This document shows, in pieces, positions 4,137-48,785 of a stretch of 64,000 nt of DNA. A program made the translations under genes and the position numbers. The DNA comes from Subtercola boreus. Its GTDB lineage: Bacteria > Actinomycetota > Actinomycetes > Actinomycetales > Microbacteriaceae. The stretch spans positions 124,001 to 188,000 of the forward strand of contig NZ_NBXA01000021.1 in NCBI RefSeq assembly GCF_003399625.1. The letters run 5' to 3'. Numbering within the stretch: the first letter of the stretch is position 1; every line of letters starts with the position of its first letter. The notes below the pieces were generated by a model, which was not told the origin of the DNA, searched no databases, and was given only the letters and a program-made list of their open reading frames with translations.

Positions 4137-4894
4137 CGGACGGTCACTCCGCTCTCGGCCAGCGCCTCTTTGACGTCGCCGATGGTCAGTTCACGGTTGT
4201 GGAACACGGATGCCGCGAGCACCGCATCGGCGCCCGCTCCGACCGCCTCGGGGAAGTCGCCGAGCTTGCCTGCGCCTCCCGAGGCGATGACCGGCACGCT
4301 GCTCATGGACTTCATCAGACGGATCAGCTCGAGGTCGTAGCCGTCTTTCGTGCCGTCGGCGTCGATGGAGTTGACGAGCAGTTCGCCCGCACCGAGTTCG
4401 ATGGCGCGCGCGGCCCAGGCCAGGGCATCCAGTTCGGTCTCGCGGCGGCCGCCGTGTGTCGTGACGACGAAACCCGAGTCTGTTCTGGAGGAGCGTTTGA
4501 CGTCGAGCGAGAGAACGAGCACCTGTGCGCCGAAGCGGTCGGCGATCTCGCCGAGCAGCTCGGGCCGGGCGATCGCGGCGCTGTTCACGCCCACCTTGTC
4601 GGCTCCGCTCGCGAGCAGCCGGGCGACGTCTTCGGCGCTCCGCACTCCCCCGCCGACGGTCAGCGGGATGAAGACCTGCTCGGCGGTCTGGCGCACGATG
4701 TCGTAGGTCGTCTCGCGTTCGTCGACCGTCGCGGTCACGTCGAGAAAGGTGATCTCATCCGCTCCCTGCGCGCTGTAGAGGCGCGCGAGTTCGACGGGAT
4801 CGCCCGCGTCGCGGAGGTTCTCGAAGTTGACACCCTTGACGACCCGGCCGGCGGCAACGTCGAGGCACGGGATGACGCGCACGGCGAGCGTCAT
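4133..4894 (-). CDS. hisF: Imidazole glycerol phosphate synthase cyclase subunit
   Basis: A 253-aa TIM barrel that, with the HisH glutaminase, forms imidazole glycerol phosphate and AICAR. Visible: [17 protein letters not shown] (catalytic Asp after PCL), the second catalytic Asp in [13 protein letters not shown], phosphate loops VGGGVRS and [11 protein letters not shown]. HisH and HisA are not in the window, so the his genes are split. Its ATG lies within the stop of a 20-codon repeat-derived mini-ORF (4891-4953). Confidence 0.97.
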
Positions 4895-4953
4895 GATCGA
4901 GCCTCGCGGCGTGTGAGCGACATGGTCAGAGCCTCGCGGCGTGTGAGCGACAC
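4891..4953 (-). CDS. Possible 20-codon coupling ORF between hisG and hisF
   Basis: An open frame starts with GTG two bases after the hisG stop and ends in a TGA that overlaps the hisF ATG. Its translation is a near-exact repeat, [10 protein letters not shown] followed by [10 protein letters not shown], because the DNA is a 30-bp tandem repeat. No independent Shine-Dalgarno was seen. It may only relay ribosomes from hisG to hisF, or be an accident of the repeat; nothing shows that the peptide has a function. Confidence 0.3.
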
Positions 4954-4972
4954 GGTCAGAGCCTCGCGGCGT
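4899..4972. repeat. 30-bp tandem repeat, about 2.5 copies, over the hisG 3' end
   Basis: Units begin at 4899, 4929 and 4959, each opening gagcctcgcggcgtgtgagc. The first two copies differ at one base; the third is a partial copy that forms the last codons of hisG. The hisG-hisF spacer therefore looks like a tandem duplication of the hisG terminus. Confidence 0.9.
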
Positions 4973-5795
4973 GGATCGGGCTCACCAGGATGGCGCGGGC
5001 ACCGACCTCCCAGAGGGAGTCCATCACCAGGTTCATCTCCGTTCGCGGAACCATCGCGCGAACAGCGACCCAGTCGGGGTCGGCGAGCGGGGAGATGGTC
5101 GGCGACTCGATGCCGGGGGTGACCGCCGTGGCGGCGTCGAGGTGCACGCGGGGCACGTCGTAGTCCATCAGCACGTACTGGCGAGCGACGAGAACACCCT
5201 GCAGGCGCCGGAGCAGCGTGTCGGCGCCGGGGTTCTCCACCCCGGAGGAGATGAGCACGGCCGTCGACTGCAGGATGACCGGGCCGAAGATCTCGAGCCC
5301 GGCCTTCCGGAGCGTGCTGCCGGTCGAGACGACGTCGGCGACAGCATCCGCGACGCCGAGGCGCACCGCCGATTCGACGGCGCCGTCGAGCTTGACGAGG
5401 GTCGCCGTGACGTTCGTCTTCGCGAGGAAGGCACCGACGAGGCCCGGGTAGCTGGTGGCGACGCGGCGGCCCTGCAGCTGGTCGAGACTGTCGAACTGAC
5501 CGCCGGGTGCGGCGAAGCGGAAGGTCGACTCGCCGAAGTTCAGCTCGGCGACCTCTGCGGCCGGCGATTCGGAGTCGAGCAGCAGGTCGCGACCCGTGAT
5601 GCCGACGTCGAGCGCGCCCGAGCCGACGTAGGTAGCGATGTCCCGCGGGCGGAGGTAGAAGAACTCGACGTTGTTGCGTGGATCCTGGGTGACCAGCTCA
5701 CGGGGGTCGCGGCGGCCGTGGTAGCCGGCCTCTGCGAGCATCTGGGCAGCGGTCTCCGACAGCGAACCCTTGTTGGGTACCGCGATTTTCAGCAT
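4956..5795 (-). CDS. hisG: ATP phosphoribosyltransferase (long form)
   Basis: A 279-aa HisG of the long class, which condenses ATP and PRPP in the first step of histidine synthesis. Domains I and II span about residues 1-205: [12 protein letters not shown] at the start, VGITGRDLL, and [15 protein letters not shown] as the PRPP-binding loop. Residues 206-279 form the regulatory ACT-like domain that binds histidine in this class. It starts 36 nt after hisE. The last codons lie in a 30-bp tandem repeat that extends downstream. Confidence 0.97.
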
Positions 5796-5831
5796 GGTGA
5801 TCTTTCGTGGAAAGTGGGGGGTGTGGTGCTC

Positions 5832-6095
5832 TTACAGGTGCTTGTACACGTCGGCGGGGCTGAGGCCCTTCGCCAGCATCATCACCTGCAGATGGTAGAG
5901 CAGCTGTGAGATCTCCTCGGCCGTCTCGTCGAGGCTCTGGAATTCGGCTGCCATCCACACCTCTGCGGCCTCTTCGACGATCTTCTTGCCGATGGCATGC
6001 ACGCCGGCGTCGAGCTCGCGCACGGTGCCGGAGCCCTCGGGGCGGAGCTGCTGCTTCTGCTGCAGCTCCTCGAACAGGGAGTCGAAGGTCTTCAC
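5832..6095 (-). CDS. hisE: Phosphoribosyl-ATP pyrophosphatase
   Basis: An 87-aa all-alpha NTP-PPase that hydrolyses PR-ATP to PR-AMP, histidine step 2. Metal-binding acidic residues lie in [16 protein letters not shown] and [14 protein letters not shown]. The length is typical of stand-alone HisE. The start is GTG with little Shine-Dalgarno match; the upstream spacer is filled with an 18-bp repeat. Next in the operon is hisG. Confidence 0.95.
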
Positions 6096-6104
6096 GTGTT
6101 CTAG

Positions 6105-6158
6105 GTTACCGGGTGGTTCAGGGTTACCGGGTGCGTCACGGTTGCCGCGTGCGTCAGT
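6105..6158. repeat. 18-bp imperfect tandem repeat between rpe and hisE
   Basis: Three units start at about 6105 (gttaccgggtggttcagg), 6123 (gttaccgggtgcgtcacg) and 6141 (gttgccgcgtgcgtcag). The third covers the rpe stop codon at 6154-6156, so the spacer again looks like a duplication of a gene end. Confidence 0.8.
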
Positions 6159-6810
6159 GCGAGTGCCTCACGGCCAGCTCACGCAACAGCCCGATCTGGG
6201 CCGCCGCGTTCTCGGCACCGAAGACGCTGGAACCGGCGACGAACGTGTCGGCACCGGCCGCCGCGGCGATCTCGATGGTCGTCTCGCTGATACCCCCGTC
6301 GACCTGGAGCCACACGTCGAGGCCGGTCTTCGCCACGGCCTCGCGAGCGGCGGCGAGCTTCGGCATCGTGTCGGCCATGAAGGACTGTCCGCCGAAGCCG
6401 GGCTCGACCGTCATGATGAGCAGCATGTCGAATTCGGCCAGCAACTCGAGGTAGGGCGCGATGCTCGTGCCCGGCTTCACGGCGAGACCGGCTCGGGCGC
6501 CGATCTGCCGGAGACGCCGGGCGGTGGCCACGGCATCCACCGCAGCCTCGGCGTGGAACGTGACCGAGAACACACCGGTCTCGGCATAGACGGGTGCCCA
6601 GTGGTCGGCATCCGTGATCATGAGATGCAGGTCGAGAGGCAGCGGCGAGACCTTCTGCAGGCTCTCGACGACCGGAAGGCCGAGGGTGAGGTTCGGCACG
6701 AAATGGTTGTCCATCACGTCGACGTGGATCATGTCGGCAGTGGAGACGCGGTCGATCTCGGCCTGCAGGTTGGCGAAGTCGGCGGCAAGGATACTGGGGT
6801 CGATTCTCAC
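6154..6810 (-). CDS. rpe: Ribulose-phosphate 3-epimerase
   Basis: About 218 aa, a TIM barrel that interconverts ribulose-5-P and xylulose-5-P in the pentose phosphate pathway. Motifs: [13 protein letters not shown] at the start, [14 protein letters not shown] (catalytic Asp, metal ligands), [17 protein letters not shown] and the second catalytic Asp in VDGGI. GTG 6810 is preferred because gggagg lies 7 nt upstream; GTG 6825 would add five residues. It sits upstream of hisE, feeding pentose metabolism next to the PRPP-consuming histidine pathway. Confidence 0.95.
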
Positions 6811-6826
6811 GGGCACGCCTCCCACC

Positions 6827-7339
6827 CTAGTTGACCGGCACCGCCCGATCAGGCATCGGGGCGGGGGCTTCGCGGAGTGCTCCGGACGAGCCGCGCAGCC
6901 ACCCCACGTGACCCTGGTCGACGAAGCCGAGCGAGTCCACCCGCCAGGTGCCGCTCTTCATGATAGCCACGAGCGAATCTGCAGCCGGCTCGGGGAACCC
7001 CCACTTGTACGGTGACGACCTCTTCTGCTGCACGAAGTACGAACCCGGCGGGAGGATCCTGAGGCGGAGGGGTGCGTAGGGCGACCCATCGGCGTCGACG
7101 AAGGAGACGACGACGTCGGTGACGGGCGCGCCTGACGTGTTCAGGAGATGGATGCCGACCGTTCCGCGACCGTCGGCGGTGTGTTGGGAGGCCCACGCGG
7201 AGACGGCGACTGCTTGCGCCCGACGGTCCCGCTGCTGCTCGATCCGGGCGACGCGCCAAGCCGCCACACCGGCGAAGACCGCCGCGACGAGCGCGCCGAC
7301 GGAGGTCAGGGCGGCCAGCCACACCGGCACGTCATTCAT
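6827..7339 (-). CDS. Unrecognised membrane-anchored protein
   Basis: About 170 aa from ATG 7339. There is one N-terminal hydrophobic segment (residues 5-25, [20 protein letters not shown]), a short charged stretch rich in Arg and Gln, then a predicted beta-rich domain with [20 protein letters not shown] and later [19 protein letters not shown]. This resembles extracytoplasmic or membrane-proximal beta-sandwich proteins of actinobacteria, but I recognise no named family. It is wedged between rsmB and rpe, which are usually close together, so it may be a lineage-specific insertion. A longer start at 7429 is possible. Confidence 0.7.
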
Positions 7340-7447
7340 CGTGCCCACCAGGCAGGTACAGCCCATCGGGCCCGCACAGCCCACCGTGAGTTCATGAGCT
7401 TCTGTCGTGTCTTCATGGGACCCGACCATACCGCAGGACCGAACCGG

Positions 7448-9097
7448 TCAGAGCTTTCGGAACAGGGCGATGAACATCGCATCGGTGCCGTGCACGTGCG
7501 GCCAGAGTTGAGCCTGCGTCTCGTCGGAGCCGAGCGCCAGCGGCGTGTCTGCGAACGACTGGAGCGTGGCCTGGGTGCCGAGGGGCTCCAGTGCTCCGCT
7601 GTGGCGCTTCAGGGCATCCGTCGCCTGCCCGCGCGTCTCGGCGACATGCGGCGAGCAGGTGACGTAGGCGAGGATGCCGCCGGGCTTCAGGGCTGCGACG
7701 GCCGAGTCGATGAGCTTCGACTGCAGAACGACGAGTTCGGCGACGTCTTTCGGGGTTTTGCGCCAGCGTGCCTCCGGCCGACGCCGGAGGGCCCCGAGGC
7801 CGGTGCAGGGGGCGTCGACGAGGATGCGGTCGAACTCACCGGGGTTCGATGCGCCGACGATGGTGCCGTCGAGTTCCCAGACGACCGGCGGGTCGGGGAA
7901 GGCCGCAAGGGCGTTCCGCACGAGTTCGGCCCGGGCGGGCACGGGTTCGTTCGCGGTGAGGACCGCGCCGCCCTCCCGCGCCTCTGCCGCCAGCACGGCG
8001 GACTTGCCGCCGGGGCCGGCACAGAGGTCGAGCCACCGTTCGCCTGTCGCGATCGGCCGTGCCCGGGTGAGGGCGAGCGCAGCGAGCTGTGATCCCTCGT
8101 CCTGCACGCGGACGGTGCCTGCCGTGACTTCGGGGATGTCCCGCGGATCGCCCGAGTCGGTGATGAAGCCGAACGGCGAGTAGGGCGCAGGATGCCCGTC
8201 GACGGCGATCTGGTCGCGGTTCGCCAGCCCCGGCAGGGCGACCAGGCCGAGCCGTGCGGGTTCGTTGTCGGCTTCGAGGAGGGCGACAAGGTCGACTTCT
8301 GCCTCGTCGGCGTTTGCACCGTCGGTCAGAAGAGCCCGGCGGAAGGCACGGACGATCCAGGACGGATGCGAGTACAACACCTCGAGGCGACCGTCTTCAC
8401 CCTGGGCGCTCGCCAGCACCCTGTCCTGCCACTGTTCGGGCGTCGAACGGGTGATCGTACGGAGCACGCCGTTGACGAAACCGGTCGAGGACCGGGACGC
8501 CACGACACGGGCGAGTTCCACGGCCTCGTTGACGGCGGCGTGACTCGCGACGCGGAGCGACAGCAGCTGGTGCGCGGCGAGTTCGAGCACATCGACGAGC
8601 GGGCCGTCGATCTCGTCGATCCGGCGGTTGGCCGCAAGCTCGATGACACGGTCGTAGTACCCGCGGAGGCGGAGCGTTCCGTAGGTCAGTTCTGTGGCCA
8701 GACCGGCATCGGCGGTGCTGAGTTTCGCGCGGGCGAGCTTGGTGGGCAGCAGCAGGTTGGCGTAGGCGTCGTCCTCCCGCACCGCCCGGATCACCTCGAA
8801 GGCGATCCGCCGGGCCGGCTGCACGGCGGTGGCGCTCTGCGTGCGTTCGCGGGGGCCTGGAGCGGTGCCGGAGCGGTCGCGCCCGGCCCCGTGGCCGCGG
8901 CCGCGATCGCGGCTGGGTGTGTCGCGGCCGGCGCTGTCGCTGCCAGTACTGTCTCGACCCGAGCTGCCCCGGCCCGGACTGGAACTCCGCCCCTGGTTGG
9001 CGCCCCGGCGGCCGTGCTTCGGCCGGTCGCCCGGGGTCTCGCCCGTACCACCGGTGCCGCCGGTGCCGCCTGTGCCGCCGTCATTCGTGCCGCTCAT
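7448..9097 (-). CDS. rsmB: 16S rRNA (cytosine-C5)-methyltransferase RsmB
   Basis: A 549-aa SAM-dependent methyltransferase predicted to modify C967 of 16S rRNA. After about 110 low-complexity residues (Gly, Arg, Ser, Asp-rich) comes a NusB-like RNA-binding domain (about 115-250), then the Rossmann methyltransferase: LDLCAGPGGKSAVLA is the SAM loop, VDAPCTGLGALRRRPEARWR holds one catalytic Cys and YVTCSPHVAE the other. The E. coli enzyme is about 430 aa, so the N-terminal tail is the main difference. ATG 9097 overlaps the fmt stop by 4 nt. Confidence 0.93.
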   Translation of the reverse strand: MSGTNDGGTGGTGGTGGTGETPGDRPKHGRRGANQGRSSSPGRGSSGRDSTGSDSAGRDTPSRDRGRGHGAGRDRSGTAPGPRERTQSATAVQPARRIAFEVIRAVREDDAYANLLLPTKLARAKLSTADAGLATELTYGTLRLRGYYDRVIELAANRRIDEIDGPLVDVLELAAHQLLSLRVASHAAVNEAVELARVVASRSSTGFVNGVLRTITRSTPEQWQDRVLASAQGEDGRLEVLYSHPSWIVRAFRRALLTDGANADEAEVDLVALLEADNEPARLGLVALPGLANRDQIAVDGHPAPYSPFGFITDSGDPRDIPEVTAGTVRVQDEGSQLAALALTRARPIATGERWLDLCAGPGGKSAVLAAEAREGGAVLTANEPVPARAELVRNALAAFPDPPVVWELDGTIVGASNPGEFDRILVDAPCTGLGALRRRPEARWRKTPKDVAELVVLQSKLIDSAVAALKPGGILAYVTCSPHVAETRGQATDALKRHSGALEPLGTQATLQSFADTPLALGSDETQAQLWPHVHGTDAMFIALFRKL

Positions 9098-10074
9098 TCC
9101 GCCACCATCTCGATCGTCGATCCTGCTGCGTTGCTGGCCTGCCCGCCGCCAGCCTGCCCGCCGCCAGCCTGCCCGCCACCGGCCTGCGCACCGCGCCACC
9201 AGTCCGCGGCCGCCATCGGCTTCTTCCCCGATGGTTGCACACGCACCAGGCGGAGCGGCGTGTCGGCCGTGCCGATGACCGGTGTGCGCCCGTCGAGCCG
9301 GATGCGCCCGGGCGGCAGTTGAGGTGCATCCCGCGCGGGTTCCGCCTCCAGGATCTTGAAGCGCTCACCCGCGACCGTCGTGAAGGCTCCGGGCTCTGGC
9401 GTGACACCGCGGAGGCGCTGGTAGATCTCGGCGGAACCCAGCGTCCAGTCGAGCCGGGCATCCTCGATACCGAGTTTCGGAGCCAGGGTCGGCTCGCCCT
9501 GTTGCTCCGCTGAGACCGCGGTGCCGTCGACGAGTCCGCGCACGACCTCGGAGACGAGCCCGGCGCCATCGTCGGCCAGCGAACCGAGCAGGCTGCCGGC
9601 GCTCTGGTGGGCGCCGATCGGCGTGCGGAGTGTCTGGAACACGGGGCCTGCATCCATTCCCGGCACGAGCTGGAACACGGATGCCCCGGTGACGGCGTCG
9701 CCCGCGATGATGGCGTGCTGCACAGGCGCCGCCCCGCGCCAGCGAGGCAGGAGGGAGAAGTGCAGGTTGATCCAGCCGAGGCGGGGTGTGCTGAGCAGGG
9801 GTTCCCGCACGAAGCCGCCGTAGGCGACGATCACTCCGAGTTCGGCGTCGAGCGCCTCAACGCGAGTGGTCACCTCGTCGTCGAGCCGGTTCGCCTTGAT
9901 GACAGGGATGCCGAGCTCCTCGGCCACGGCGGCCACGGGTGACGGGGTGAGCACGCGCTTCCGGCCCTGCGGGGCATCCAGCCGGGTGATGACGGCGACG
10001 ACCTCGTGTTCGGCGGCCAGCCGGCGGAGGGTGGGGTTGGCAACCTCAGGGGTTCCGGCGAAGACAAGTCTCAA
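9094..10074 (-). CDS. fmt: Methionyl-tRNA formyltransferase
   Basis: A 326-aa enzyme that formylates initiator Met-tRNA using 10-formyl-THF. The formyltransferase domain spans residues 1-200: FAGTPEVANP, NLHFSLLPRWRGAAPVQHAI (Asn-His active site, SLLP loop), GDAVTGASVFQL. The C-terminal OB-like domain spans 205-295. The tail carries three AGGGQ repeats from a 15-bp tandem repeat. The start is TTG, overlapping the priA TGA (TTGA), with ggag about 8 nt upstream. Confidence 0.95.
   Translation of the reverse strand: MRLVFAGTPEVANPTLRRLAAEHEVVAVITRLDAPQGRKRVLTPSPVAAVAEELGIPVIKANRLDDEVTTRVEALDAELGVIVAYGGFVREPLLSTPRLGWINLHFSLLPRWRGAAPVQHAIIAGDAVTGASVFQLVPGMDAGPVFQTLRTPIGAHQSAGSLLGSLADDGAGLVSEVVRGLVDGTAVSAEQQGEPTLAPKLGIEDARLDWTLGSAEIYQRLRGVTPEPGAFTTVAGERFKILEAEPARDAPQLPPGRIRLDGRTPVIGTADTPLRLVRVQPSGKKPMAAADWWRGAQAGGGQAGGGQAGGGQASNAAGSTIEMVAE
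9137..9186. repeat. 15-bp tandem repeat in the fmt 3' end
   Basis: Three copies of a 15-bp unit (cctgcccgccgccag and variants) encode repeated AGGGQ near the Fmt C-terminus. Phase is preserved, so the repeat only lengthens a flexible tail. Confidence 0.8.
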
Positions 10075-12212: not shown

Positions 12213-13420
12213 AAGCCTGCTGCGGCCTGCAGATCGCCCACGCGGTCGAGGCGCTCCCAGGTGAAGTCGGGGAGCTCCCGGCCGAAGTGGCCGTAGGTGG
12301 CCGTCTGGGCGTAGATCGGGCGAAGGAGGTCGAGGTCGCGGATGATCGCGGCCGGCCGCAGGTCGAAGACCTGCCTGATGGCGTCGATGATGCGCTCGTC
12401 GGGAATGTGGTTCGTGCCGAACGTCTCGACGTAGAGACCCACCGGTGCCGCCTTGCCGATCGCGTAGGCGATCTGCACCTCGAGCTTGTCGGCGAACCCG
12501 GCCGAGACCGCGTTCTTCGCGACCCAGCGCATGGCGTACGCGGCGGAACGGTCGACCTTCGACGGGTCTTTGCCGCTGAAGGCACCGCCGCCGTGACGGC
12601 TCGCTCCGCCGTAGGTGTCGACGATGATCTTCCGCCCGGTGACACCGGCATCGCCCTGCGGCCCGCCGATCTCGAACCGGCCGGTGGGGTTGATCAGCAG
12701 GGCCGCCGCCTGGGAGTCGAGCGGTGCGTCGGCGAGAACGGGACGGATGACCAGCTCCTCCACGTCGTGTGCGAGCTGTTCGCTCGTCACACTCGGCGTG
12801 TGCTGGGTGGAGAGCACGACGGTCTCGACCGTGCGCGGAGTGAGGCCGTCGTAGCCGATGGTCACCTGGGTCTTGCCGTCGGGCCGGAGGTAGTCGAGCT
12901 GCCCGGTCTTCCGTACCTCGGCGAGCCGCTCGGAGAGCCGGTGGGCGAGCCAGATCGGAAGCGGCATGAGCTGCGGGGTCTCGGTGGTCGCGAAGCCGAA
13001 CATGATGCCCTGGTCGCCTGCGCCCTGCCGGTCGAACGGGTCGTCGTCGTGACCCCCTGAGACGCTCGCAGCCTGGCGGGTCTCCCACGCGTTGTTGACG
13101 CCCTGCGCGATGTCGGGCGACTGCGCACCGATCGACACGGAGACGCCGCAGCTGTTGCCGTCGAACCCGATGTCGGAGGAGGTGTAGCCGATGGCGTTCA
13201 CCCGCTCCCGGATGATCGTGGGGATGTCGACGTAGCCCTCGGTCGTGACCTCGCCCGCGACGTGCACGAGCCCGGTGGTCACCAGCGTCTCGACGGCGAC
13301 GCGGCTCTTCGGGTCGACGGTGAGGAGAGCATCGAGGATGCTGTCGGAGATCTGGTCGCAGATCTTGTCGGGGTGGCCCTCGGTGACCGACTCTGACGTG
13401 AACAGGCGAAGACTAGTCAT
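12209..13420 (-). CDS. metK: S-adenosylmethionine synthetase
   Basis: A 403-aa enzyme making SAM from methionine and ATP. Signatures: [19 protein letters not shown] at the start, [12 protein letters not shown] (methionine/ATP loop), [19 protein letters not shown] (P-loop-like) and the C-terminal HFGREL. ATG 13420 follows aggag closely. It overlaps the coaBC end by 8 nt and priA by 4 nt. It supplies SAM for methyltransferases such as rsmB downstream. No SAM riboswitch was seen upstream, as expected inside an operon. Confidence 0.97.
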
Positions 13421-14669
13421 TGTGCTCCTGGTGGTTCGAACGGCCGGCTTCTGCCAGCACATTCAGAATGCTGTGTGCCACTGACAACTTCGAGCCGGTG
13501 GCCTCGATCACTATATGCCCGGCCCCGTCGAGCACCACGACGGTGTTGCCGTCTGTGGCAAAACCCTCTGTCCAACCCACCCTGTTGACGACAAGATAGT
13601 CCGCGCGCTTGCGGGCGGCCTTCGTGCGGCCGAGTTCGAGGAGTTCGTCGCGGCTGGCAGCGGTCTCGGCGGCGAAGCCGACGACGAGCTGCCCGGGTGC
13701 GCGGCTCGCTGCCAGCTCAGCAAGGATGTCGGGATTCTTCACGAGCTCCAGGGTGAGGACGTCGCCCACGGTGTCCTTCTTGATCTTGCCCTCCGCCACC
13801 TCGCGAGGGCGGTAGTCGGCGACGGCTGCAGCCATGATCACGATGTCGGCCCCGCCGAGCAGGGCGTTCATCTCCGTGCGCAACTGCTCTGCCGTCTCGA
13901 CGGCATGGCTCTCGACTCCGGCAGGCACCGGTACCTCCAGGTGAGCGGCGACGAGAGTGACGGAGGCGCCCCGGCCGAGCGCGGCTTCGGCAAGGGCCAC
14001 ACCCTGCTTGCCACTCGAGCGGTTGCCGAGGAAGCGCACGGGATCGAGCGGCTCGCGTGTTCCGCCGGCGGAGATGAGGATGCGGAGGCCCGTGAGGTCT
14101 GCCTCGCCCGGGGCTGGCGCTGCGGCATCCGGAGCCTGCGCGCCCGAGGGCAGCAGCGCCAGGCCCGCGGCGACGATCTCGTCGGGCTCCGGCATCCGCC
14201 CGGGCCCCGAGTCGGTGCCGGTCAGCTGACCCACCGCTGGCCCGATGAACCGGTACCCGCGAGAGCGGAGCAGTGCCGTGTTGGCGACGGTCGCAGCGTT
14301 CTGCCACATCTCGGTGTGCATGGCAGGAGCCAGGAGCACAGGCGCAGTCGATGCGAGCACCGTGTTGCCGAGCAGGTCGTCCGCGAGCCCGGCCGCGAGC
14401 TTCGCAAGGGTGTTGGCCGTGGTGGGGGCGATCACGATGAGATCAGCGGCCTGCCCGAGCGCCACGTGGCGCACTTCGGCGACACCCTCGTAGAGGTCGG
14501 TGTGCACGGTGTTGCGGGAGATCGCCTCGAGCGTCGGCTTGCCGACGAAGCGCAGGGCGTGCTCCGTGGCGATGACCTGCACGCTGTGGCCCGCGAGAAC
14601 GAAGCCGCGGACGACCCCGACCGCCTTGTAGGCGGCGATTCCCCCGGTGATTCCGACGACGATGTTCAT
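13413..14669 (-). CDS. coaBC: Bifunctional phosphopantothenoylcysteine decarboxylase / phosphopantothenate-cysteine ligase
   Basis: A 418-aa bifunctional CoA-biosynthesis flavoprotein. The CoaC (decarboxylase) half, residues 1-180, has [10 protein letters not shown] (FMN), [20 protein letters not shown] and APAMHTEMW. The CoaB (ligase) half, from about 195, has [26 protein letters not shown] and the later VVGFAAET and KRADYLVVN. It lies just after the rpoZ terminator, so it needs its own promoter or read-through; only about 30 bp separates the terminator from the ATG. Confidence 0.96.
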
Positions 14670-14702
14670 GGCTCTACTCTGGCAGGTCGAAAGCGGGCGA
14701 GG

Positions 14703-14741
14703 GAAAAAGAAAGGCCCGCAGTCGAGGTGACAGCGAGCCTT
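14703..14741 (-). terminator. Rho-independent terminator after rpoZ
   Basis: On the minus strand AAGGCTCGC and GCGGGCCTT form a 9-bp stem (one G-U pair), followed by TCTTTTTC. It lies about 50 nt after the rpoZ stop and ends the pyr-gmk-rpoZ transcript. Confidence 0.85.
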
Positions 14742-14757
14742 CCGTGACGAAACAGGA

Positions 14758-14812
14758 TTACTCCGGGACCGGAGCGTTCCTCGTCCGATCCCTATTCAGG
14801 GATCGGAGCATT
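14758..14812. repeat. Duplicated rpoZ gene end with hairpins
   Basis: The last codons of rpoZ (NAPIPE then stop, 14792-14812) are echoed at 14758-14778 as codons for NAPVPE then stop, 34 bp downstream and in a different frame. Each copy holds an inverted repeat: CCGATCCCT/AGGGATCGG (14785-14806) across the true stop codon, and CTCCGG/CCGGAG (14761-14774) in the copy. Confidence 0.75.
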
Positions 14813-15058
14813 GGCTTTGACGGTGAGCTTGTCCTCGTTGATCTCGTGCAGGGCGATCGAGAGCGGCTTGTCGTCGATGCCGGAGTCGACCAGCGGGCCG
14901 ACGTTGTCGAAGAGGCTGCCTTCGTGCAGGTCGGCGTAGTAGTCGTTGATCTGGCGCGCACGCTTGGAGGCGAAGATCACGAGGGCGTACTTGGAGTCGA
15001 CCTTCGAGAGCAGCTCGTCGATGGGCGGGTCGATGATGCCGAGGGGCTTGGCTGGCAT
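14792..15058 (-). CDS. rpoZ: DNA-directed RNA polymerase omega subunit
   Basis: An 88-aa omega subunit that helps beta' folding and RNA polymerase assembly. [31 protein letters not shown] is split here as [16 protein letters not shown] and [10 protein letters not shown], the family core. ATG 15058 has aaggag 8 nt upstream; an upstream start is only extra reading frame. It follows gmk by about 60 nt, the usual actinobacterial order gmk-rpoZ-coaBC-metK. A strong terminator follows. Confidence 0.96.
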
Positions 15059-15120
15059 GGGGGTACTCCTTGATTCGAAGGGGAAGGCCGAGGTCGTGAA
15101 AGGGGCCTTCAGAACGTGCA

Positions 15121-36247: not shown

Positions 36248-36275
36248 CTAAGCGTATCTGTAACGAACGAGGGAA

Positions 36276-36964: not shown

Positions 36965-37095
36965 AAATCGAGGGATGGGCCGGATGATTCGGCTACAGAA
37001 TTCATCGTTCCTGATCGGGGTCTCTCGCAGCCGCGCTAAAGACACCCAAAAGTAGGCCTCGAGAAGATTACCACAGGAGACACCCGAACCACGGC

Positions 37096-38427: not shown

Positions 38428-38582
38428 GGCTTCAGGGTAGCCCGACCCACCGACAGGGCTGCTGCGCAGGGACTGCACGGGCTGCTCCGCAGGGAGCTTT
38501 TGAGCTGAGGGCCGGATTCACCGTAAAGTTCTCGGGGGGTCCGTCGCTTGTCAGCGCCGGAACAGTCGTTGACGGAGGATTC

Positions 38583-39386: not shown

Positions 39387-39399
39387 GGTGAATTTCGTG

Positions 39400-40626: not shown

Positions 40627-40636
40627 TCCACCGGCT

Positions 40637-40707
40637 GGTCCTCCACAGCTCAGTCCTCCGTCGCCCGGTCCTCCACAGCTCAGTCCTCCGACGCCGGTCC
40701 TCCACAG
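40637..40707. repeat. 30-bp tandem repeat after the DUF349 gene
   Basis: Units start at 40637, 40667 and 40696; each opens ggtcctccacagctcagtcc (the third after 12 bases diverges). The first spacer is 30 bp and the second 29 bp. The repeat begins 10 nt after the stop codon. Confidence 0.85.
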
Positions 40708-40784
40708 TCCTGTCGGTCACGGGGTTCTCCACAGATCCGTGTTCTGGAACCGGAGCCGGCGCCCGGGAGGGGCACCATGGAGAC

Positions 40785-41354
40785 ATGCCCCGACTCCTTC
40801 CCGACCTCCTGTTCCCCACCGCTACGTTCGGCCTCGCTGAACTCAGCGCGGCTCGTCTCGACGGCGAGCTGACACCCGTCGATTCCGGCTTCGCGCCGCT
40901 GGACTGCCCGGGAACGGTCGCCCTCCGGCTCCGGGCACTGGTACCCCTCCTGCCGAAGACGGCCATCGTCGAACGACAGAGTGCCCTCTGGGTCTACGGG
41001 TTCCGGCCGTTCCCGCCGGCGCGTCATCAGGCGTGCGTGCGCGCGGGGGTCGGCCGACGGGCTCCGGGTTCGGTGCGGCTGCAGGTGCGCGAGGTCGTCC
41101 TCGAGCCGGATGATGTCGTGATGGTCGCAGGCATCGCCCTGACGTCCATGATCCGAACGGCCATCGACCTGGCACGGGCCCAGGCCACGGTCGACGACGT
41201 CCAGGGTGGTCGGCTCAGGTTGCTCCTCGAAGCATCGGGCGCCACCCTCGACGAGTGCCTCGAACGCCTGGAACGATGCCGCAACATGCCGAACAAGACT
41301 CGTGCAAGCGTTCGGCTCCATGAGGCCTTCGGTGCTGTGCTCAGCCCCCGCTGA
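40785..41354 (+). CDS. Hypothetical protein resembling AbiEi-type antitoxins
   Basis: A 189-aa protein with an Ala/Leu-rich N-terminal half and a central segment [33 protein letters not shown] and [13 protein letters not shown]. The last resembles the AbiEi/DUF559-linked proteins, but I see no HTH that I can name and no toxin partner. It ends 14 nt inside the 3' end of relA, so the two transcripts are convergent and overlap. A competing ATG at 40777 opens another frame that ends early. Confidence 0.55.
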
Positions 41355-43593
41355 CCCGGTAGACGTCATAGACGGCGTCGATCCGACGAACGGCGTTCAG
41401 AACCCGATCGAGATGGGTGGTGTCTCCCATCTCGAACACGAACCTACTGATAGCGAGGCGGTCTCTCGACGTGCTCACCGTGGCCGAGAGGATGTTGACG
41501 TGGTGTTCGGAGAGCACGCGGGTGACGTCCGACAGCAGGCCCGAACGGTCGAGCGCCTCGACTTGGATCTGCACGAGGAACACGCTCTTCGACGATGGGG
41601 CCCAGTCGACCTCTATCATCCGCTCCGGCTCCATCAGCAACGACTTCACGTTGTGGCAGTCGGACTGGTGCACAGACACGCCCGCGCCGCGGGTCACGAA
41701 GCCGACGATCTCATCGCCCGGCACCGGGGTGCAGCACTTCGCGAGTTTGACGAGGATGTCGGGAGCGCCTCGAACCAGCACGCCGGACTCGCTGTGGGTC
41801 GACCGCGGTCGCCTCCCCACTCCGACGTCGATCTCACTGTCATCACTCTCGACCTCGGTCTGGAGCGACTGCAGCACCTTCTCGATCACCGACTGGGTGG
41901 AGACGTGTCCCTCGCCGATCGCGGCGTACAGCGCCTCGACGTTGTTGTAGCTGAGCTGCGATGCGACCTCGGAGAACGAGTCCTGGCTCATCAGCTTCTG
42001 CAGTGGGAGATTCTGCTTGCGCATGGCGCGGGCGATCGAGTCCCGGCCCTGCTCGACGGCCTCGTCGCGGCGTTCCTTTGTGAACCACTGGCGGATCTTG
42101 TTGCGGGCGCGGGGGCTCTGCACGAACGAGAGCCAGTCCTGGCTCGGACCCGAGTCCGGATTCTTCGATGTGAACACCTCGACCACGTCACCCGTGGTGA
42201 GCGTGCTCTCGAGGGGCACCAGCCGCCCGTTGACCTTGGCGCCCATCGTGCGGTGGCCCACCTCTGTGTGCACCGCGTAGGCGAAGTCGACCGGTGTCGC
42301 TCCGGCCGGAAGACCGATGACACGACCCTTCGGCGTGAAGACGTAGACCTCCTTGGCGCCGATCTCGAAGCGCAGCGAGTCGAGGAATTCCCCCGGGTCG
42401 ACCGTCTCGGCCTGCCAGTCGGAGATGCGGGCGAGCCACGCCATGTCGGTGTCGCCCCGGTCCTCGGCGGTTCCGGCACGGCCGGCGTTCATCCGCTCTT
42501 TGTACTTCCAGTGCGCGGCGACACCGAACTCTGCCCGTTGGTGCATCTCGTTGGTGCGGATCTGGATCTCGACAGCCCTGCCGCCCGGGCCCACCACTGT
42601 GGTGTGGAGCGACTGGTAGAGGTTGAACTTCGGTGTGGCGATGTAGTCCTTGAAACGGCCCGGCATCGGGGTCCAGCGGGCATGGATCGATCCGAGCACC
42701 GCGTAGCAGTCCCGAACCGAGTTCACCAGGACCCGGATGCCCACCAGGTCGTAGATCTCGTCGAACTCGCGGCCGCGAACGATCATCTTCTGGTAGATCG
42801 AGTAGTACTGCTTGGGTCGCCCGGCCACCTTGCCGCGGATCTTCGACGTCTTGAGGTCGTCGCTGACCATGTCGATGACCTGCTGCACGTACTCCTCGCG
42901 CTGCGGCGTGCGCTGCCTCACGAGGTTCTCGATCTCCACGTAGAGCTTCGGCGAGAGCACCGCGAACGAGAGGTCTTCGAGCTCCCACTTGATCGCCTGG
43001 ATACCCAGCCGATGTGCGAGGGGGGCGTAGATCTCCAGGGTCTCCTGCGCCTTCCGCGTCGAGGACTCCGGGGACACGAAACCCCAGGTGCGCGCGTTGT
43101 GGAGGCGATCGGCGAGCTTGATGATCAGCACGCGGATGTCCTTCGACATCGCGACGATCATCTTCCGCACCGTCTCGGCCTGGGCGCTCTCGCCGTACGT
43201 GACCTTGTCGAGCTTCGTCACACCGTCGACGAGCATGGCCACTTCGTCACCGAACTCGGCTCGCAACTCGTCGAGCGAGTACTCGGTGTCTTCGACGGTG
43301 TCATGCAGGAGCGCCGCTGCGATGGTCTTCGTGCCGATGCCGAGCTCTGCCAGGATCTGCGCCACGGCGACCGGGTGAGTGATGTACGGTTCGCCGCTTC
43401 GGCGCTTCTGCCCGTCGTGGGCCCGCTCGGCAACCGTGTAGGCCCGCTCGATGATGCTGAGGTCGGCCTTCGGATGATTCGCCCGAACCGTGCGGATCAG
43501 TGTGTCGACCGCACCCGCGGGCTGGGCGCGGGAGAACAGGCGCGGAACGAGCCGCCGCAGCGACGCGTTTGTCGGTGCAGTGGTTTCGGTCAT
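41341..43593 (-). CDS. relA: Bifunctional (p)ppGpp synthetase/hydrolase
   Basis: A 750-aa Rel. The HD hydrolase domain has [16 protein letters not shown] and [12 protein letters not shown]; the synthetase domain has [13 protein letters not shown] and [18 protein letters not shown] starts near [20 protein letters not shown] and the C-terminal ACT-like domain near [18 protein letters not shown] conserved Cys/His patch, [13 protein letters not shown], is present. The apt gene usually beside relA is absent here. It is preceded closely by secF. Confidence 0.97.
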
Positions 43594-43620
43594 GAGAGGG
43601 CCTCCACGACCATTATCCCA

Positions 43621-44646
43621 CTAAGCCTTGAGCTGCTCCGCCGAAGCCCGGGTCTCGGCCGGCTTCTCACGGTTGGCTCGCTGGGAGAGCACCCGTTGGT
43701 CGATCTTCTTCACCTTGGGTTCGTTCTGCCGCAGCTGGGCGTAGAGCGGCGACGCGATGAAGATCGTCGAGTAGGTTCCGACGAAGATCCCGATCAGGAG
43801 CGCGAGCGAGATGTCCCGGAGGGTTCCGGCGCCCAGCACGAAGGCTCCGATGACCAGGATGGAGGCGACAGGCAGCATCGCAACGACGGACGTGTTGATC
43901 GAGCGCACCAGGGTCTGGTTCACCGCAAGGTTCACCGTCTCACCGAAGGTGCGCGTCGCCTTGTCGCCCCATTCGACCGTGTTCTCCCGGATCTTGTCGA
44001 ACACCACCACGGTGTCGTAGAGCGAGTATCCGAGGATGGTCAGGAAGCCGATCACGGCCGCAGGAGTGATCTCGAACCCGGTGATGCCGTAGATGCCTGC
44101 AGTGATCACGAGGTCGTGGAGCAGCGCCACCATCGCCGAGACGGCGATCTTCCAGGTTCGGAAGTAGATCGCCATGAAGACGGCGGCGAGCACGATGAAG
44201 ATCAGCAGGCCCCGAATTGCCTGGCCGGTGATGTCGGCGCCCCAGGTCGGGCCGATGAAGTTGATCGTCACGTCGGAGGGCTGCACGTTGTACGCCGCGG
44301 CGAGGGCGTCGCGCACCTGGTTGCTCTCGGCGTCGTCGAGCTGGTCGGTCTGGATGCGGATACCACTCTGGCCGAGGGTGGAGACCAGCGGTACGACGGC
44401 GGGGTCGACGGACTTCACCGCATCGATACCGGCCTGCTGCGAGGCGTTCGACACCTGCGAGATCGAGAACTGCGAACCGCCGCTGAACTCGATCCCGAAG
44501 ACGAACCCACCACGGAGGAAGGGCCCGACCACAGAGACGAGGATGAGAAGACCGGCGATCGCATACCAGAGCTTGCGTCGACCGACAATGTTGAACGAAC
44601 GCTTGCCGGTGTACAGATCGTTTCCGAGATCACTGAACGAGGCCAT
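43621..44646 (-). CDS. secF: Protein-export membrane protein SecF
   Basis: A 341-aa subunit of the SecDF complex that uses proton motive force to aid Sec export. Six predicted membrane segments; the D1-like motif GIEFSGGSQF is near residue 55 and the D4 region SLYDTVVVFDKIREN near 200. The last 25 residues are polar and Ala/Arg-rich. ATG 44646 shares a base with the secD TGA. Confidence 0.96.
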   Translation of the reverse strand: MASFSDLGNDLYTGKRSFNIVGRRKLWYAIAGLLILVSVVGPFLRGGFVFGIEFSGGSQFSISQVSNASQQAGIDAVKSVDPAVVPLVSTLGQSGIRIQTDQLDDAESNQVRDALAAAYNVQPSDVTINFIGPTWGADITGQAIRGLLIFIVLAAVFMAIYFRTWKIAVSAMVALLHDLVITAGIYGITGFEITPAAVIGFLTILGYSLYDTVVVFDKIRENTVEWGDKATRTFGETVNLAVNQTLVRSINTSVVAMLPVASILVIGAFVLGAGTLRDISLALLIGIFVGTYSTIFIASPLYAQLRQNEPKVKKIDQRVLSQRANREKPAETRASAEQLKA

Positions 44647-46358
44647 CAGCTGTCTTTTCCCTTGCTTCGGGTGGGCGTTTCTGTCTCGGCGGGTGGATCG
44701 ATAACGAGAGTCGATGCCCCCGCGGCGCGGCGTTCGGCGATGGTCTGGCGCCGTGCGGCCTCGCGGCCGGCCGACTCCTGCTTCGAGCGCGGAACGGCTG
44801 CCGTGGGCGTCTTGAACTGTGCGCGGCCCCGGTAGACGGCTCCGAGCTGACGCGGATCGAGTCCGCTCGTCTTGTGGCCGTCGCGGAAGTACGGCAGCTC
44901 CGCCAGGAGCGTCATCACCGGGTGAGTGAACATCATCACCACCACGATGTCGATGATCGTCGTGAGGCCGAGCGTGAGGGCGAAGCCCTTCACACTGCCC
45001 ACGGCAACGATGTAGAGCACGACGGCCGCCATGAGGTTGATGAGGTCGGAGGCGAAGATCGTGCGGATGGCGCGCTTCCAGCCGGCCTGCACGGAGGATT
45101 CGAGACCTCTGCCATCACGCAGTTCGTCACGTATTCGTTCGAAGTAGACGATGAAGGAGTCCGCAGTGATACCGATGGCCACGATGAGACCCGCGACGCC
45201 CGCGAGTGAGAGGCGGTATCCGGCGCGCCAGGAGAGCAGGTCGACGACCAGGTAGGTCGCTGCCGCAGCGACGACGAGCGATGCGATCGTCACGGCACCG
45301 AGCACGCGGTACTGGGCGATCGAGTAGAGCACCACGAGGATGAGGCCGATCAGACCCGCGATCAGGCCGCTGATGAGCTGGGTGGATCCGAGGGTCGCCG
45401 AGATCGTGTTCTGGCTCTGCACGACGAAGCTGATGGGCAATGCGCCGAACTTCAGCTGGTCGGCCAGCGTCTTCGACGACGCGGCGTCGAAGTTGCCGGA
45501 GATCTGCGGCTGGCCGTTGGTGATCACCGCGAGGGTACGGGGGGCTGAGATGACCTTGCCGTCGAGAACGATGGCGAACTGGTTCTGGGCGCCGGTGAGG
45601 CCCGAGAGCCGCGTGGTCACCGACGCGAATTCACTCGTGCCCTGCTCGTTGAAGAAGATGTTGACGACGTACTGGCCGGTGGAGGCTCCGGAGCTGGTCT
45701 GGGCGACTCCGCTCGTCGCGTTGGAGATCGTGTCTCCGGCCACCTCGACCGGGCCGAGGATGTACTTCGCGCCGTCTTCGCCACAGGCGACGAGGGGCTG
45801 GTCGGCTGGAGCCTGACCGGCATCCGTCGCGGCAGTCGAGGTGCAGTCGATGTTGAGGAACTGGTCCTCGAGGGCCGGCGTGATGTAGTTCAGGTCACTG
45901 GCGTTGGTCGGAGCAACGGTGGGCGTGGCATCCAGACCCGGTGTCGGGGTGGTCGTCGGCACGTCGGCGGTCGTCGAGACGAGAACTGCGCGGAAGTCGA
46001 GCTTCGCCGAGGCCTCGATGCGAGCGAGAGTGGCGTCGTCGGGCGTGCCGGGGATCGACACGACGATGTTCTGGCCGCCCTGGGTGGAGATCTGGGCCTC
46101 GGACACACCACTTGCATCGACACGCTGCCGTATGATCGCCACGGCCTGCGAGACCTGCTCGTCGGAGACGGCCGCGCCGCCGGTCTTCGGGGCGAGGATG
46201 ATCTCGGTTCCGCCCTCGAGGTCGAGTGCGAGCTTCGGAGTGAATGTTCCACCGCCCCAGATGGCACCAGCGGTGTTGACGCCGGCAAGGGCGATGAAGA
46301 TGACAAGGAGCCACACCAGTGTGCGTCTGGCCCTCTTGACGGCAGTTGATTTTGCCAC
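44646..46358 (-). CDS. secD: Protein-export membrane protein SecD
   Basis: A 570-aa SecD. D1 motif LALDLEGGTEIILA, a periplasmic P1-type domain with two low-complexity Thr/Pro stretches, then the membrane region with VAIGITADSFIVYFERI (D4) and DIVVVMMFTHPVM. The N-terminus is a membrane helix. Start GTG 46358. The C-terminal tail is cytoplasmic and Arg/Ala-rich. Confidence 0.96.
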   Translation of the reverse strand: MAKSTAVKRARRTLVWLLVIFIALAGVNTAGAIWGGGTFTPKLALDLEGGTEIILAPKTGGAAVSDEQVSQAVAIIRQRVDASGVSEAQISTQGGQNIVVSIPGTPDDATLARIEASAKLDFRAVLVSTTADVPTTTPTPGLDATPTVAPTNASDLNYITPALEDQFLNIDCTSTAATDAGQAPADQPLVACGEDGAKYILGPVEVAGDTISNATSGVAQTSSGASTGQYVVNIFFNEQGTSEFASVTTRLSGLTGAQNQFAIVLDGKVISAPRTLAVITNGQPQISGNFDAASSKTLADQLKFGALPISFVVQSQNTISATLGSTQLISGLIAGLIGLILVVLYSIAQYRVLGAVTIASLVVAAAATYLVVDLLSWRAGYRLSLAGVAGLIVAIGITADSFIVYFERIRDELRDGRGLESSVQAGWKRAIRTIFASDLINLMAAVVLYIVAVGSVKGFALTLGLTTIIDIVVVMMFTHPVMTLLAELPYFRDGHKTSGLDPRQLGAVYRGRAQFKTPTAAVPRSKQESAGREAARRQTIAERRAAGASTLVIDPPAETETPTRSKGKDS

Positions 46359-46488
46359 CTGCGAAACTCAGCTTTCTATAACGCCCCCGCGGCAGAGTGC
46401 TGCCGACGCTAGAGCCTACGGCATGCGCGCCGCAAAGACCTGTCGCCCGCGCAGACCGCTGCCGCGAACTCGTGAACGGTTGGGGTTG

Positions 46489-46914
46489 TTACTCAGCCGA
46501 CTTACGCGGGTTGCCGTGCTCGTCGAAAGGAACACCGTTCAGGATCGTACCCTCATCGGTGGTCGTCTTCTCGAGCGATGGAGCGACACGCTCGCCGAAC
46601 TCGGGCTCGCCCTGTTCGCCTGAGGTCTCGACATCGTCGATCGCAACAGCATCTTCGGTGGGAACGACGCGGGTGACGGTCTGGCGGTGCACCTTCAGCA
46701 CGGTGCCGGGCGTGGACTCGAGGAAGATCTGGTTGTTCTCCGCGTCGATCGAGAGGATCGTGCCGTAGACGCCGAAGTTGGTCATCACGTAGGCGCCCTC
46801 GGTGATCTTCTGCGCCAGCTCTTCGGTCTCACGCTTGCGCTTGCGACTGTTTCGCACCATGAAGATGATGAGAACGGCCAGAACGGCCAGGATGACCAGA
46901 TTCAACGGATCCAT
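46489..46914 (-). CDS. yajC: Preprotein translocase subunit YajC
   Basis: A 141-aa YajC of the SecDF-YajC complex. One membrane helix (LNLVILAVLAVLIIFMV), then RNSRKRKRETEELAQKI and the conserved GAYVMTNFGVYGTILSID. The C-terminus is longer than usual (about 40 extra acidic residues). ATG 46914 is preferred, though TTG 46935 is an alternative with closer Shine-Dalgarno-like sequence. Confidence 0.94.
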   Translation of the reverse strand: MDPLNLVILAVLAVLIIFMVRNSRKRKRETEELAQKITEGAYVMTNFGVYGTILSIDAENNQIFLESTPGTVLKVHRQTVTRVVPTEDAVAIDDVETSGEQGEPEFGERVAPSLEKTTTDEGTILNGVPFDEHGNPRKSAE

Positions 46915-46991
46915 GTAGAGGGGAGAGCCTTCCAAGAAGTGGGGGGATTGACGTCCCCAGTGTACTGATCGGGGCTGAACGCCAGCTTGAA

Positions 46992-48071
46992 TTATAGTTC
47001 ATCCCCGAACAGCGGCTGGGCGCGGGCCCCGGGGGTGCTGTTCTGCTGGCCGGGAACGGCCTGGGGTTCGAGCCCGAAGTGCTGCCATCCCTCGCGCGTC
47101 GCCATTCGTCCGCGGGGCGTCCGCACGATGAGTCCGATCCGCACCAGGAACGGTTCGACGACCGATTCGATGGTCTCCGACTCCTCACCCACGCTCACTG
47201 CGAGCGTGTTGAGGCCCACCGGGCCACCGTTGAACCGGGTGAGGAGGATCATCATCACGGCACGGTCGAGTCGGTCGAGCCCCCGCTCGTCGACGTCGTA
47301 CAGTTCGAGCGCCGAGCGCACGACGGCACGAGTAGCCTCTCCCCCGTGAACGAGCGCGTAGTCCCGCACCCGGCGGAGCAGCCGGTTCGCGATCCGGGGT
47401 GTTCCCCGTGACCGGCCGGCGATCTCGATCAGCGCGGACTCCTCGATCGAGAGTTCGAGCATCACCGCGGCACGGCGGAGCACGTGCACCAGTTCCTCGG
47501 GGTCGTAGAACTCGAGGTGTGCGGTGAATCCGAACCGGTCGCGGAGCGGGTTCGGCAGCAGTCCCGAACGCGTCGTCGCCCCCACGAGGGTGAACGGTGC
47601 GAGATCGAGGGGGATGGATGTCGCCCCCGCCCCTTTGCCCACCATGATGTCGATGCGGAAGTCCTCCATCGCGAGGTAGAGCAGCTCCTCAGCCGAGCGC
47701 GCCATGCGGTGGATCTCGTCGACGAAGAGCACCTCACCCGGCACGAGCGACGACAGCACCGCGGCGAGATCGCCCGCGTGCTGGATGGCAGGTCCGCTCG
47801 ACATGCGGAGGGGGCGCCCGCTCTCGTGGGCGACGATCATCGCGAGTGTCGTCTTGCCGAGGCCGGGCGGCCCGGCCAGCAGGATGTGGTCAGGGGTGCG
47901 GTTCTGGATGGTCGCGGCATCCAGCAGCAACTGGAGCTGCCCGCGCACCCGCTGTTGCCCCACGAATTCGGCCAGGCTCTTCGGGCGGAGCGCACCCTCG
48001 AAGGCCACCTCCGCCTCGGAACCCAGTTCGGGCTGCAACACCTCGCCGGCTGCCATTCCCTCGGCGCTCAT
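46992..48071 (-). CDS. ruvB: Holliday junction helicase RuvB
   Basis: A 359-aa AAA+ motor of Holliday-junction branch migration. Walker [14 protein letters not shown], Walker [11 protein letters not shown], sensor GATTRSGLL and the winged-helix end [21 protein letters not shown] are present. ATG 48071 overlaps the ruvA stop by 4 nt. The extra N-terminal 20 residues are acidic. Confidence 0.97.
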
Positions 48072-48703
48072 CGGGGACCGGCCGAGCCCTGGCGGGGCCC
48101 GAGTTCGGTGAGGGCGAGTCGCAGGAGCGACTGCACGCTCATGGTGTCGACGTCGTCGTTCGCCACGGAGACCACCCTGTCGAGGGCCTCGGAGGCATTG
48201 CGTTCATTCCAGCCCAACCCGACGAGCGCGACCAGCACGTCGTCGTGGATCGAGGTGGTGCCGACGAAGGTCGGAGCCTGTCCGGCAGCCGGAACAGCGC
48301 CGAGACCGGCGACCTTGCCGGTGAGCGAGACGACGATGAGTTTCGCCGTCTTTGGACCGATGCCGGACACGCGTCGGAAGACCGCATCGTCGTCGTGGGT
48401 CACCGCTCGCACGATCTCGGAGGCGGTCAGAGCAGCGAGCACGCCGAGAGCGGATTTCGGGCCGACACCGGTCACCCCGACCAGGAGCGAGAAGATCTCC
48501 AGCGACTCAGCATCGGCGAAACCGAAGAGCGAGAGTGAGTCCTCCCGCACGATCAGGGTGGTGAGAACGAGAGCCTCCTGACCGGACCGCAGGGTGAGGG
48601 CATGGCTGGGCGTCACCTGCACGGCGAAGCCGACCCCGCCGACCTCGATCACGAGAGAGGAGCCGACCGCCTGGAGCACGGTGCCACGAAGACTGGATAT
48701 CAC
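48068..48703 (-). CDS. ruvA: Holliday junction DNA helicase subunit RuvA
   Basis: A 211-aa RuvA. The OB domain starts with [19 protein letters not shown], followed by two HhH motifs ([17 protein letters not shown] and [16 protein letters not shown], the DNA-backbone-contacting loops) and a C-terminal three-helix domain with [22 protein letters not shown] start. It sits between ruvC and ruvB. Confidence 0.95.
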
Positions 48704-48735
48704 GACGCCAGCCTATTACTCGTACACACCTTCGA

Positions 48736-48785
48736 ACGTGCGACACTCGGGAATGCGACACTCGCGAGTGCGACGCTCGAGAGTA
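48736..48785. repeat. 15-bp tandem repeat between ruvC and ruvA
   Basis: Units at 48736, 48751 and 48766 (acgtgcgacactcgg, gaatgcgacactcgc, gagtgcgacgctcga) and a partial fourth. The repeat begins about 5 nt after the ruvC stop. Confidence 0.85.

Follow-up and report, generated by a model that had tools for sequence, protein, structure and literature searches.

Tandem duplications gather at gene ends in Subtercola boreus and may form relay reading frames at operon junctions

In mycobacterial interspersed repetitive units (MIRUs), an open reading frame (ORF) within the repeat keeps coupling to the next gene through a 4-nt overlap, according to excerpts of PMC12548453. The MIRU units of senX3-regX3 measure 77 and 53 bp in the excerpts of PMC4213456, and both lengths are, by our arithmetic, of the form 3n+2. 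The repetitive extragenic palindromic or palindromic units (REP/PU) of enterobacteria are 30-37 bp long (excerpts of PMC2884548). In reporter studies in Haloferax and E. coli, as excerpted from PMC10666635, gaps of about 20 nt nearly abolished coupling, so that an uncoupled insert would be costly. Here we analyze a 64,000-nucleotide stretch of the Subtercola boreus genome (contig NZ_NBXA01000021.1, positions 124,001 to 188,000; hereafter the window), in which the ends of hisG, rpe, rpoZ, ruvC and a DUF349 gene carry short tandem or direct duplications.

We consider it fairly probable that microhomology-associated duplications arise genome-wide, that selection filters them to gene ends, and that copies of length 3n+2 form relay ORFs. 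Tandem duplications of about 10-35 bp would arise mostly where identical bases flank the future unit, by what we infer to be slippage-like template misalignment, and selection would set where they stay. Within genes, almost only units of 3n bp would survive. A duplication across a stop codon would keep the first stop and hence leave the protein unchanged, which would make it nearly neutral, while the stretch before a start, with its promoter, leader and ribosome-binding site, would tolerate few. Tolerance on the stop side combined with intolerance on the start side would then gather arrays at gene ends, most of them between convergent genes, and let them turn over fast. Where the stop and start codons of neighboring operon genes overlap (ATGA or GTGA), a 3n+2 unit would make each copy a mini-ORF with its TGA over the next start, and a terminating ribosome could re-initiate copy by copy until it reached the real gene. 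The initial annotation, made from the letters of the window, missed this reading-frame effect between coupled genes.

The comparison set comprised 12 genomes of the genus, including the genome that carries the window (G000; 4.12 Mb in 95 contigs). Its HisF is best matched, among named sequences, by Rathayibacter, Frondihabitans and other Microbacteriaceae, which puts it close to that family. In aligned DNA blocks of at least 500 bp, identity to the window was about 90-94% in G003, 78-91% in G001 and 75-88% in G002, with the same block order along the window in all three. A three-gene tree placed G000 and G003 as sisters with G001 next (support 1.0 and 0.998). Genes were called with a custom script rather than a standard annotator, and starts are less certain than stops. 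Arrays were defined as Tandem Repeats Finder (TRF) hits scoring at least 50 in 1.47 Mb of G000, G003, G001 and G002.

Spacers are strongly enriched in such arrays. The 780 spacers of 20-600 nt (104 kb) from parts of these four genomes held 84 arrays, compared with 2.5 (sd 1.5, maximum 7) in 50 dinucleotide shuffles, an excess of about 34-fold; a rate no higher than expected, the outcome that the initial annotation had named as fatal to its view, was not found. Density per 100 kb of spacer was 164 between convergent, 76 between co-directional and 42 between divergent genes, and about 14 in coding sequence. Among 138 spacer arrays, units of 15 bp (17 arrays), 16 bp (16), 18 bp (12) and 30 bp (6) all occurred, so that 15 and 30 bp, the lengths seen to recur in the initial annotation, do not stand out. 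Outside the genus, density was 58 per 100 kb of spacer in 39 loci of Streptomyces and Streptacidiphilus (31 arrays), 34 in 24 loci of Microbacteriaceae (6 arrays; these loci include L039, a metagenome-assembled genome record with a broader name that we placed there) and 43 in 17 loci of other actinobacteria (5 arrays), all of them loci surrounding hisF and not a random sample. Spacer arrays are thus a general phenomenon, perhaps stronger in this genus. Within one genus, G004 (L230-L249) and G005 (L210-L229) carried 43 and 11 spacer arrays in 400 kb each, a roughly fourfold difference.

The arrays change rapidly between species. Across 90 orthologous spacers of G000 and G003, arrays were present in both genomes in 2 cases, in G000 only in 6 and in G003 only in 4 (2/12 shared). 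The corresponding figures were 1, 7 and 7 across 94 spacers for G001 (1/15 shared) and 0, 6 and 2 across 47 spacers for G002 (0/8 shared). These comparisons treated arrays scoring below 50 as absent. Since this applies, among others, to the two-copy arrays of G003 at hisG-hisF and of G000 at rpoZ, the figures somewhat understate true sharing.

Sequence at the borders of the duplications points to how they arise. Exact two-copy spacer duplications showed a mean microhomology of 5.6 nt against about 0.8 expected, and at least 4 nt in 32 of 52, values that later copy changes and unremoved low-complexity units may inflate. Units that are specific to each locus, copy numbers that vary between species and this excess of microhomology all bear out the initial proposal of independent events of one duplication process. 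Less favorably, microhomology was only 0-1 nt in 12 of the 52, and Ku is encoded in 12/12 genus genomes; together these suggest that end joining may create some duplications, as a possible minor source. Unit length was a multiple of three in 82 of 84 exact coding duplications versus 50 of 138 spacer TRF arrays, and selection on frame is expected to give such near-uniformity within genes. Exact spacer duplications, counted with low-complexity units kept, were 3n in 35 of 64 cases, more than a third and a point against our interpretation, perhaps through uncalled genes.

If the relay idea holds, the stop upstream and the start downstream should fall in the array's own register more frequently at 3n+2 periods. 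In 299 family genomes we looked for four successive copies of RTGA spaced at 17, 16, 20, 19, 14 or 13 bp, examined no more than 30 loci for each spacing and compared 3n+2 with 3n+1 periods only; 17 and 16 formed the discovery pair, and 14 and 20 versus 13 and 19 the replicate periods. Distinct arrays retained numbered 21/30 at 14 bp, 29/30 at 17 bp and 23/24 at 20 bp, and 19/21 at 13 bp, 24/30 at 16 bp and 20/21 at 19 bp. Arrays with both genes in register made up 13/73 at 3n+2 periods and 2/63 at 3n+1 periods (Fisher P 0.011). Taken singly, the start was in register in 20/73 versus 4/63 (P 0.0014) and the stop in 22/73 versus 12/63 (P 0.17), and a sense co-directional context was found in 27/73 versus 11/63 (P 0.013). 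The control contexts, antisense (9 versus 14) and convergent (17 versus 22), showed no significant difference. In the replicate periods, both genes were in register in 7/44 versus 0/39 (P 0.013). The script's chain test, which skipped the last codon of the unit, was passed by 12 of the 13 in-register arrays, and 11 of the 13 were unbroken on translation; L269 met an early stop, and the first copy in L340 hit TGA one codon early.

When a stop/start overlap is duplicated with a unit of 14, 17 or 20 bp (2 mod 3), each copy becomes an ORF of 5-7 codons whose TGA overlaps the next start. Regular chains of this kind lie in arrays near 37,803 on C1 of G000 (17 bp, three steps) and in G004 (17 bp, five steps), and a chain in Cryobacterium cheniae (L048) has four steps, three of 17 bp and a longer last one. 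We see about an even chance that operon junctions generate relay ORFs of their own, such that a 3n+2 duplication of ATGA or GTGA widens the gap while ribosomes would be passed through a chain of 5-7-codon ORFs; this would make the chains an independent, local counterpart of MIRUs that yields numerous mini-peptides missing from annotations. What the data show of the relay is a sequence arrangement backed by a register bias; its use by ribosomes is a prediction. We found no published description of such arrays among the best-ranked literature, in which subscription journals are barely covered. In L340, L255 and L265, the mini-ORFs of junction arrays repeat N-terminal residues of the downstream protein; examples are VNGAPV twice and VNGAPG once ahead of a protein beginning VNGAPV, and MSTDVAA three times ahead of one beginning MSTDVKD. 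The latter gene pair we take, by our own reading, to be hemB-hemL.

The hisG-hisF junction in the window is a relative of this arrangement. Its array (30 bp x 3.0 by TRF; 4886-4973, minus strand) spans the end of hisG, its stop codon and the start of hisF. A 20-codon mini-ORF (4891-4953, minus strand) starts 2 nt past the hisG stop and crosses the array, and its TGA overlaps the hisF ATG (ATGA), so that here a single mini-ORF would span the copies and end at the real gene. In G001 the mini-ORF has 20 codons (22 from an overlapping GTG) and in G003 it has 10. It ends at the hisF ATG in G000, G001 and G003 because the last start-to-start interval is 29 nt (3n+2) and the inner ones are 30. Since these three genomes share ancestry, the arrangement is probably one event kept rather than three.

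It is possible, although we think it doubtful, that junction arrays are retained blind to reading frame and that relay chains are coincidental. The numbers are modest, nine context measures were tested, and the similarity filter of the register test was set after earlier looks; without it, periods of 16, 17, 19 and 20 bp give both genes in register in 9/53 versus 2/48 (P 0.055). The replicate periods, the chain tests and the control contexts speak against frame-blind retention. Several further observations weigh against our interpretation. Genomes with a match numbered 37 at 17 bp, 21 at 20 bp and 60 at 14 bp, and 30 at 16 bp, 20 at 19 bp and 20 at 13 bp, so that per-genome counts do not clearly favor 3n+2, and a backwards-pattern control also gave many matches. 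The sense co-directional context was not replicated at 14/20 versus 13/19 bp (15/44 versus 8/39, P 0.22), and two 16-bp arrays (L285 and L293) had both genes in register. Mini-ORF chains occurred in 40 of 646 co-directional genus spacers of 12-200 nt, of which six contain an array; the other 34 lack one, and 4 of those have at least two steps, as do 10 of 39 array-free chain spacers outside the genus. Mini-ORF links are thus common outside arrays, and single relay examples prove little. Ten arrays that fill a co-directional spacer divide into six 3n, three 3n+2 and one 3n+1. Counts of RTGA arrays by period without context were set aside, as 3n+2 and 3n+1 periods looked alike in them.

The position of arrays relative to stops and starts bears on the filtering step. 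Of the 138 spacer arrays, 43 overlapped a stop and 4 a start, and in co-directional spacers 34 of 45 lay closer to the stop (P 0.0008). Under a first placement null, 46 stop edges had an array within 20 nt, compared with 35.4 expected. We then fitted a start-exclusion model with one shape parameter, the length of a zone upstream of a start in which no arrays occur. Across the three spacer classes in four genomes the best length was 80 nt (support 50-110), which predicts 43.6, 27.6 and 12.9 arrays in co-directional, convergent and divergent spacers; 45, 27 and 12 were observed. In 0.8 Mb of the previously unused G004 and G005, with zone length retested and density refitted, the best zone was again 80 nt (support 40-130), with 26.6, 18.1 and 9.2 predicted and 29, 17 and 8 observed. 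When midpoints were placed outside an 80-nt zone, 75 arrays in all data lay within 20 nt of a stop against 75.1 expected, although 17 of the 138 had no room outside the zone and kept their positions, which favors agreement. Avoidance of starts accounts for most, but not all, of the proximity to stops. The stop-codon link put forward in the initial annotation is real when measured against starts; it mostly reflects this avoidance rather than anything special about stops, apart from a modest convergent excess.

That excess is the main support for gene ends being mutational hotspots, where termination hairpins, stalled RNA polymerase or replication-transcription conflicts raise the duplication rate, an explanation we regard as unlikely. 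In convergent spacers, 29 of 44 arrays lay within 10 nt of a stop against 21.3 expected (P 0.003) under a null allowing for spacer growth by duplication, which the first null ignored, and against 23.3 (P 0.028) under a simpler null; across eight sequence sets, array edges in convergent spacers are most frequent between -10 and +10 nt of stops. Start exclusion thus leaves a modest excess near convergent stops unaccounted for. Taken alone, G004 favors an excluded zone of 60 nt and G005 (11 arrays) one of 155 nt, the edge of the range, and positions within co-directional spacers are best matched by a softer zone of some 30 nt, with 80 nt over-predicting stop proximity under the growth-corrected null. 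Against a hotspot, start exclusion alone predicts the class counts in both data sets, and co-directional spacers show no significant residual near stops when roughly 30 nt ahead of the start are closed to arrays (9 of 75 arrays unfitted). Coding arrays (n=263) likewise gather near both gene ends, with 42 within 60 nt of a stop and 33 within 60 nt of a start, compared with 16.6 expected each. A terminator zone might cause the convergent excess, but folding is only slightly stronger there: 40-nt stretches gave -12.1 to -12.7 kcal/mol at 20-40 nt past the stop and -10.9 to -12.1 elsewhere downstream. An idea that C-rich arrays after stops are Rho sites was dropped, as the skew is weak and common to the surrounding sequence; among arrays no more than 10 nt from a stop, C exceeded G in 15/29 convergent and 19/28 co-directional cases.

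Returning to the window, all five repeats near stop codons described in the initial annotation were recovered, four by TRF and that at rpoZ by BLAST, and the gene labels HisG, HisF, PRA-PH (HisE-type) protein, Rpe, RpoZ (Rpb6 family), DUF349, RuvC and RuvA have Pfam support. The hisG array is present with 3.0 rather than the 2.5 copies first counted, and the gene end forms part of the unit at hisG and rpoZ, as claimed, while at rpe the array takes in just the stop codon. The rpe-hisE array (18 bp x 2.9; 6104-6156, minus strand) reaches from the stop of rpe as far as the start of hisE. It has three copies in G000 and G003 and none in G001, G002 and G007, and other units are duplicated at that gene end in G004 and G010 (less clearly in G006 and G009), in a comparison that leaves out G008, G005 and G011. 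The ruvC-ruvA array (15 bp x 3.1; 48738-48784, minus strand) lies 6 nt past the ruvC stop and reaches a score of 50 in G000 only, among G000, G003, G001 and G002. The array after the DUF349 gene (30 bp x 2.4, also 15 bp x 4.7; 40637-40707, plus strand) begins 10 nt past the stop, whereas the hisG and rpe arrays overlap theirs; the same spacer holds a different 15-bp array in G003 and none scoring 50 in G001 and G002. The 30-bp hisG-hisF unit has three copies in G000 and G001, two in G003 and one in 9 of the 12 genus genomes. Repeats thus change between relatives, so that the other outcome named as fatal in the initial annotation, the same repeats unchanged in relatives, was not found either; there are, for example, 3/2/3/1 copies at hisG-hisF and 2/1/3/3 at rpoZ in G000/G003/G001/G002. 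On the three-gene tree, these patterns would need several gains or losses.

Some neighboring features were also recorded. An Rfam scan gave no match on the repeats and four tRNAs only, which form a gene cluster at 56681-57267. In a plasmid search, one Microbacterium record spans most of the his region. At 40724-40734, about 50 nt ahead of an ORF without a Pfam match (40785-41354), lies GTTCTCCACAG, which is retained in G001 and G002 and becomes GTTGTCCACAG in G003; it looks similar to a DnaA box.

Two direct copies of the rpoZ 3' end lie at 34-bp spacing (14758-14813, minus strand), under the TRF threshold, and in BLAST against G003 the ends of two blocks, 14758-14779 and 14792-14813, both map to 14285-14306. 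The 34-bp unit joins a copy of the gene end to its near-inverse, which places the stop codon in a hairpin loop; the palindrome occupies 14785-14806 (minus strand). In G001 and G002 the hairpin with the stop in its loop is itself tandemly duplicated. Such a palindrome could suggest that the repeats are functional elements, terminators or regulator sites, under selection on their sequence, a reading we hold to be very improbable. Of the five copies compared, four form 8/8 stem pairs and the fifth 7/8, with one compensatory change (C-G to T-A on both sides in G002 relative to G000 and G001) that concerted change among copies could explain as well as selection. The rpoZ 3' region folds at z -4.5, in a stretch that also contains what looks like an ordinary terminator, and the DUF349 units have CTCCACAG in common with a conserved downstream site. 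The fast turnover of arrays between orthologous spacers and the different unit sequences from locus to locus argue against such selection. A dispersed mobile repeat family, the behavior of MIRUs in the excerpts of PMC12548453, finds no support in our data and is scarcely credible: the hisG-hisF array, the only one searched genome-wide in G000, occurs at a single place, and the listed units differ by locus, many containing the local gene end.

If selection-filtered duplication with 3n+2 relays is the right account, coupled genes can drift apart while keeping translational coupling, and a simple 3n+2 length rule, which the published limits on coupling distance make reasonable, would apply to duplications at junctions. 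Minisatellites at gene ends would be mostly explained without a special hotspot, and a short ORF lying between operon genes might be a relay frame and not a gene. The arrays would then offer a local, non-mobile route to a MIRU-like arrangement.

Compared with described systems, the arrays share features with several. The TAACTGA repeats of Beggiatoaceae are also direct repeats near gene junctions, some over the upstream stop, but in the excerpts of PMC4679880 they are a single fixed heptamer mostly just ahead of starts. Archaeal Borg tandem repeats are likewise independent and fast-evolving, with 3n units in ORFs and just 14-38% 3n in spacers; they are perfect, A-enriched and virtually absent from host genomes, whereas the arrays here are often imperfect, GC-rich and chromosomal. 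Like the palindromic intergenic REP/PU, the 34-bp rpoZ unit, the only one folded, is palindromic, but it is made from the gene end. Bacterial minisatellites or variable number tandem repeats are closer, sharing spacer units of tens of bp, variable copy number and frame-keeping units within genes: TRF finds head-to-tail units in the range of about 10-100 bp, and copy number varies between species of the genus, each comparison using one strain of this species. What differs is the quantified link to gene ends and a unit often drawn from the gene end itself. With MIRUs, the hisG-hisF and relay arrays share, as an arrangement of sequence, a short ORF in the repeat that overlaps the next gene, by 4 nt in MIRUs. 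MIRUs, however, are one dispersed, apparently mobile family with related sequence at many loci, while the arrays here, by the genome-wide search with hisG-hisF and comparison of the other units as listed, are local and short and differ in sequence from one junction to the next.

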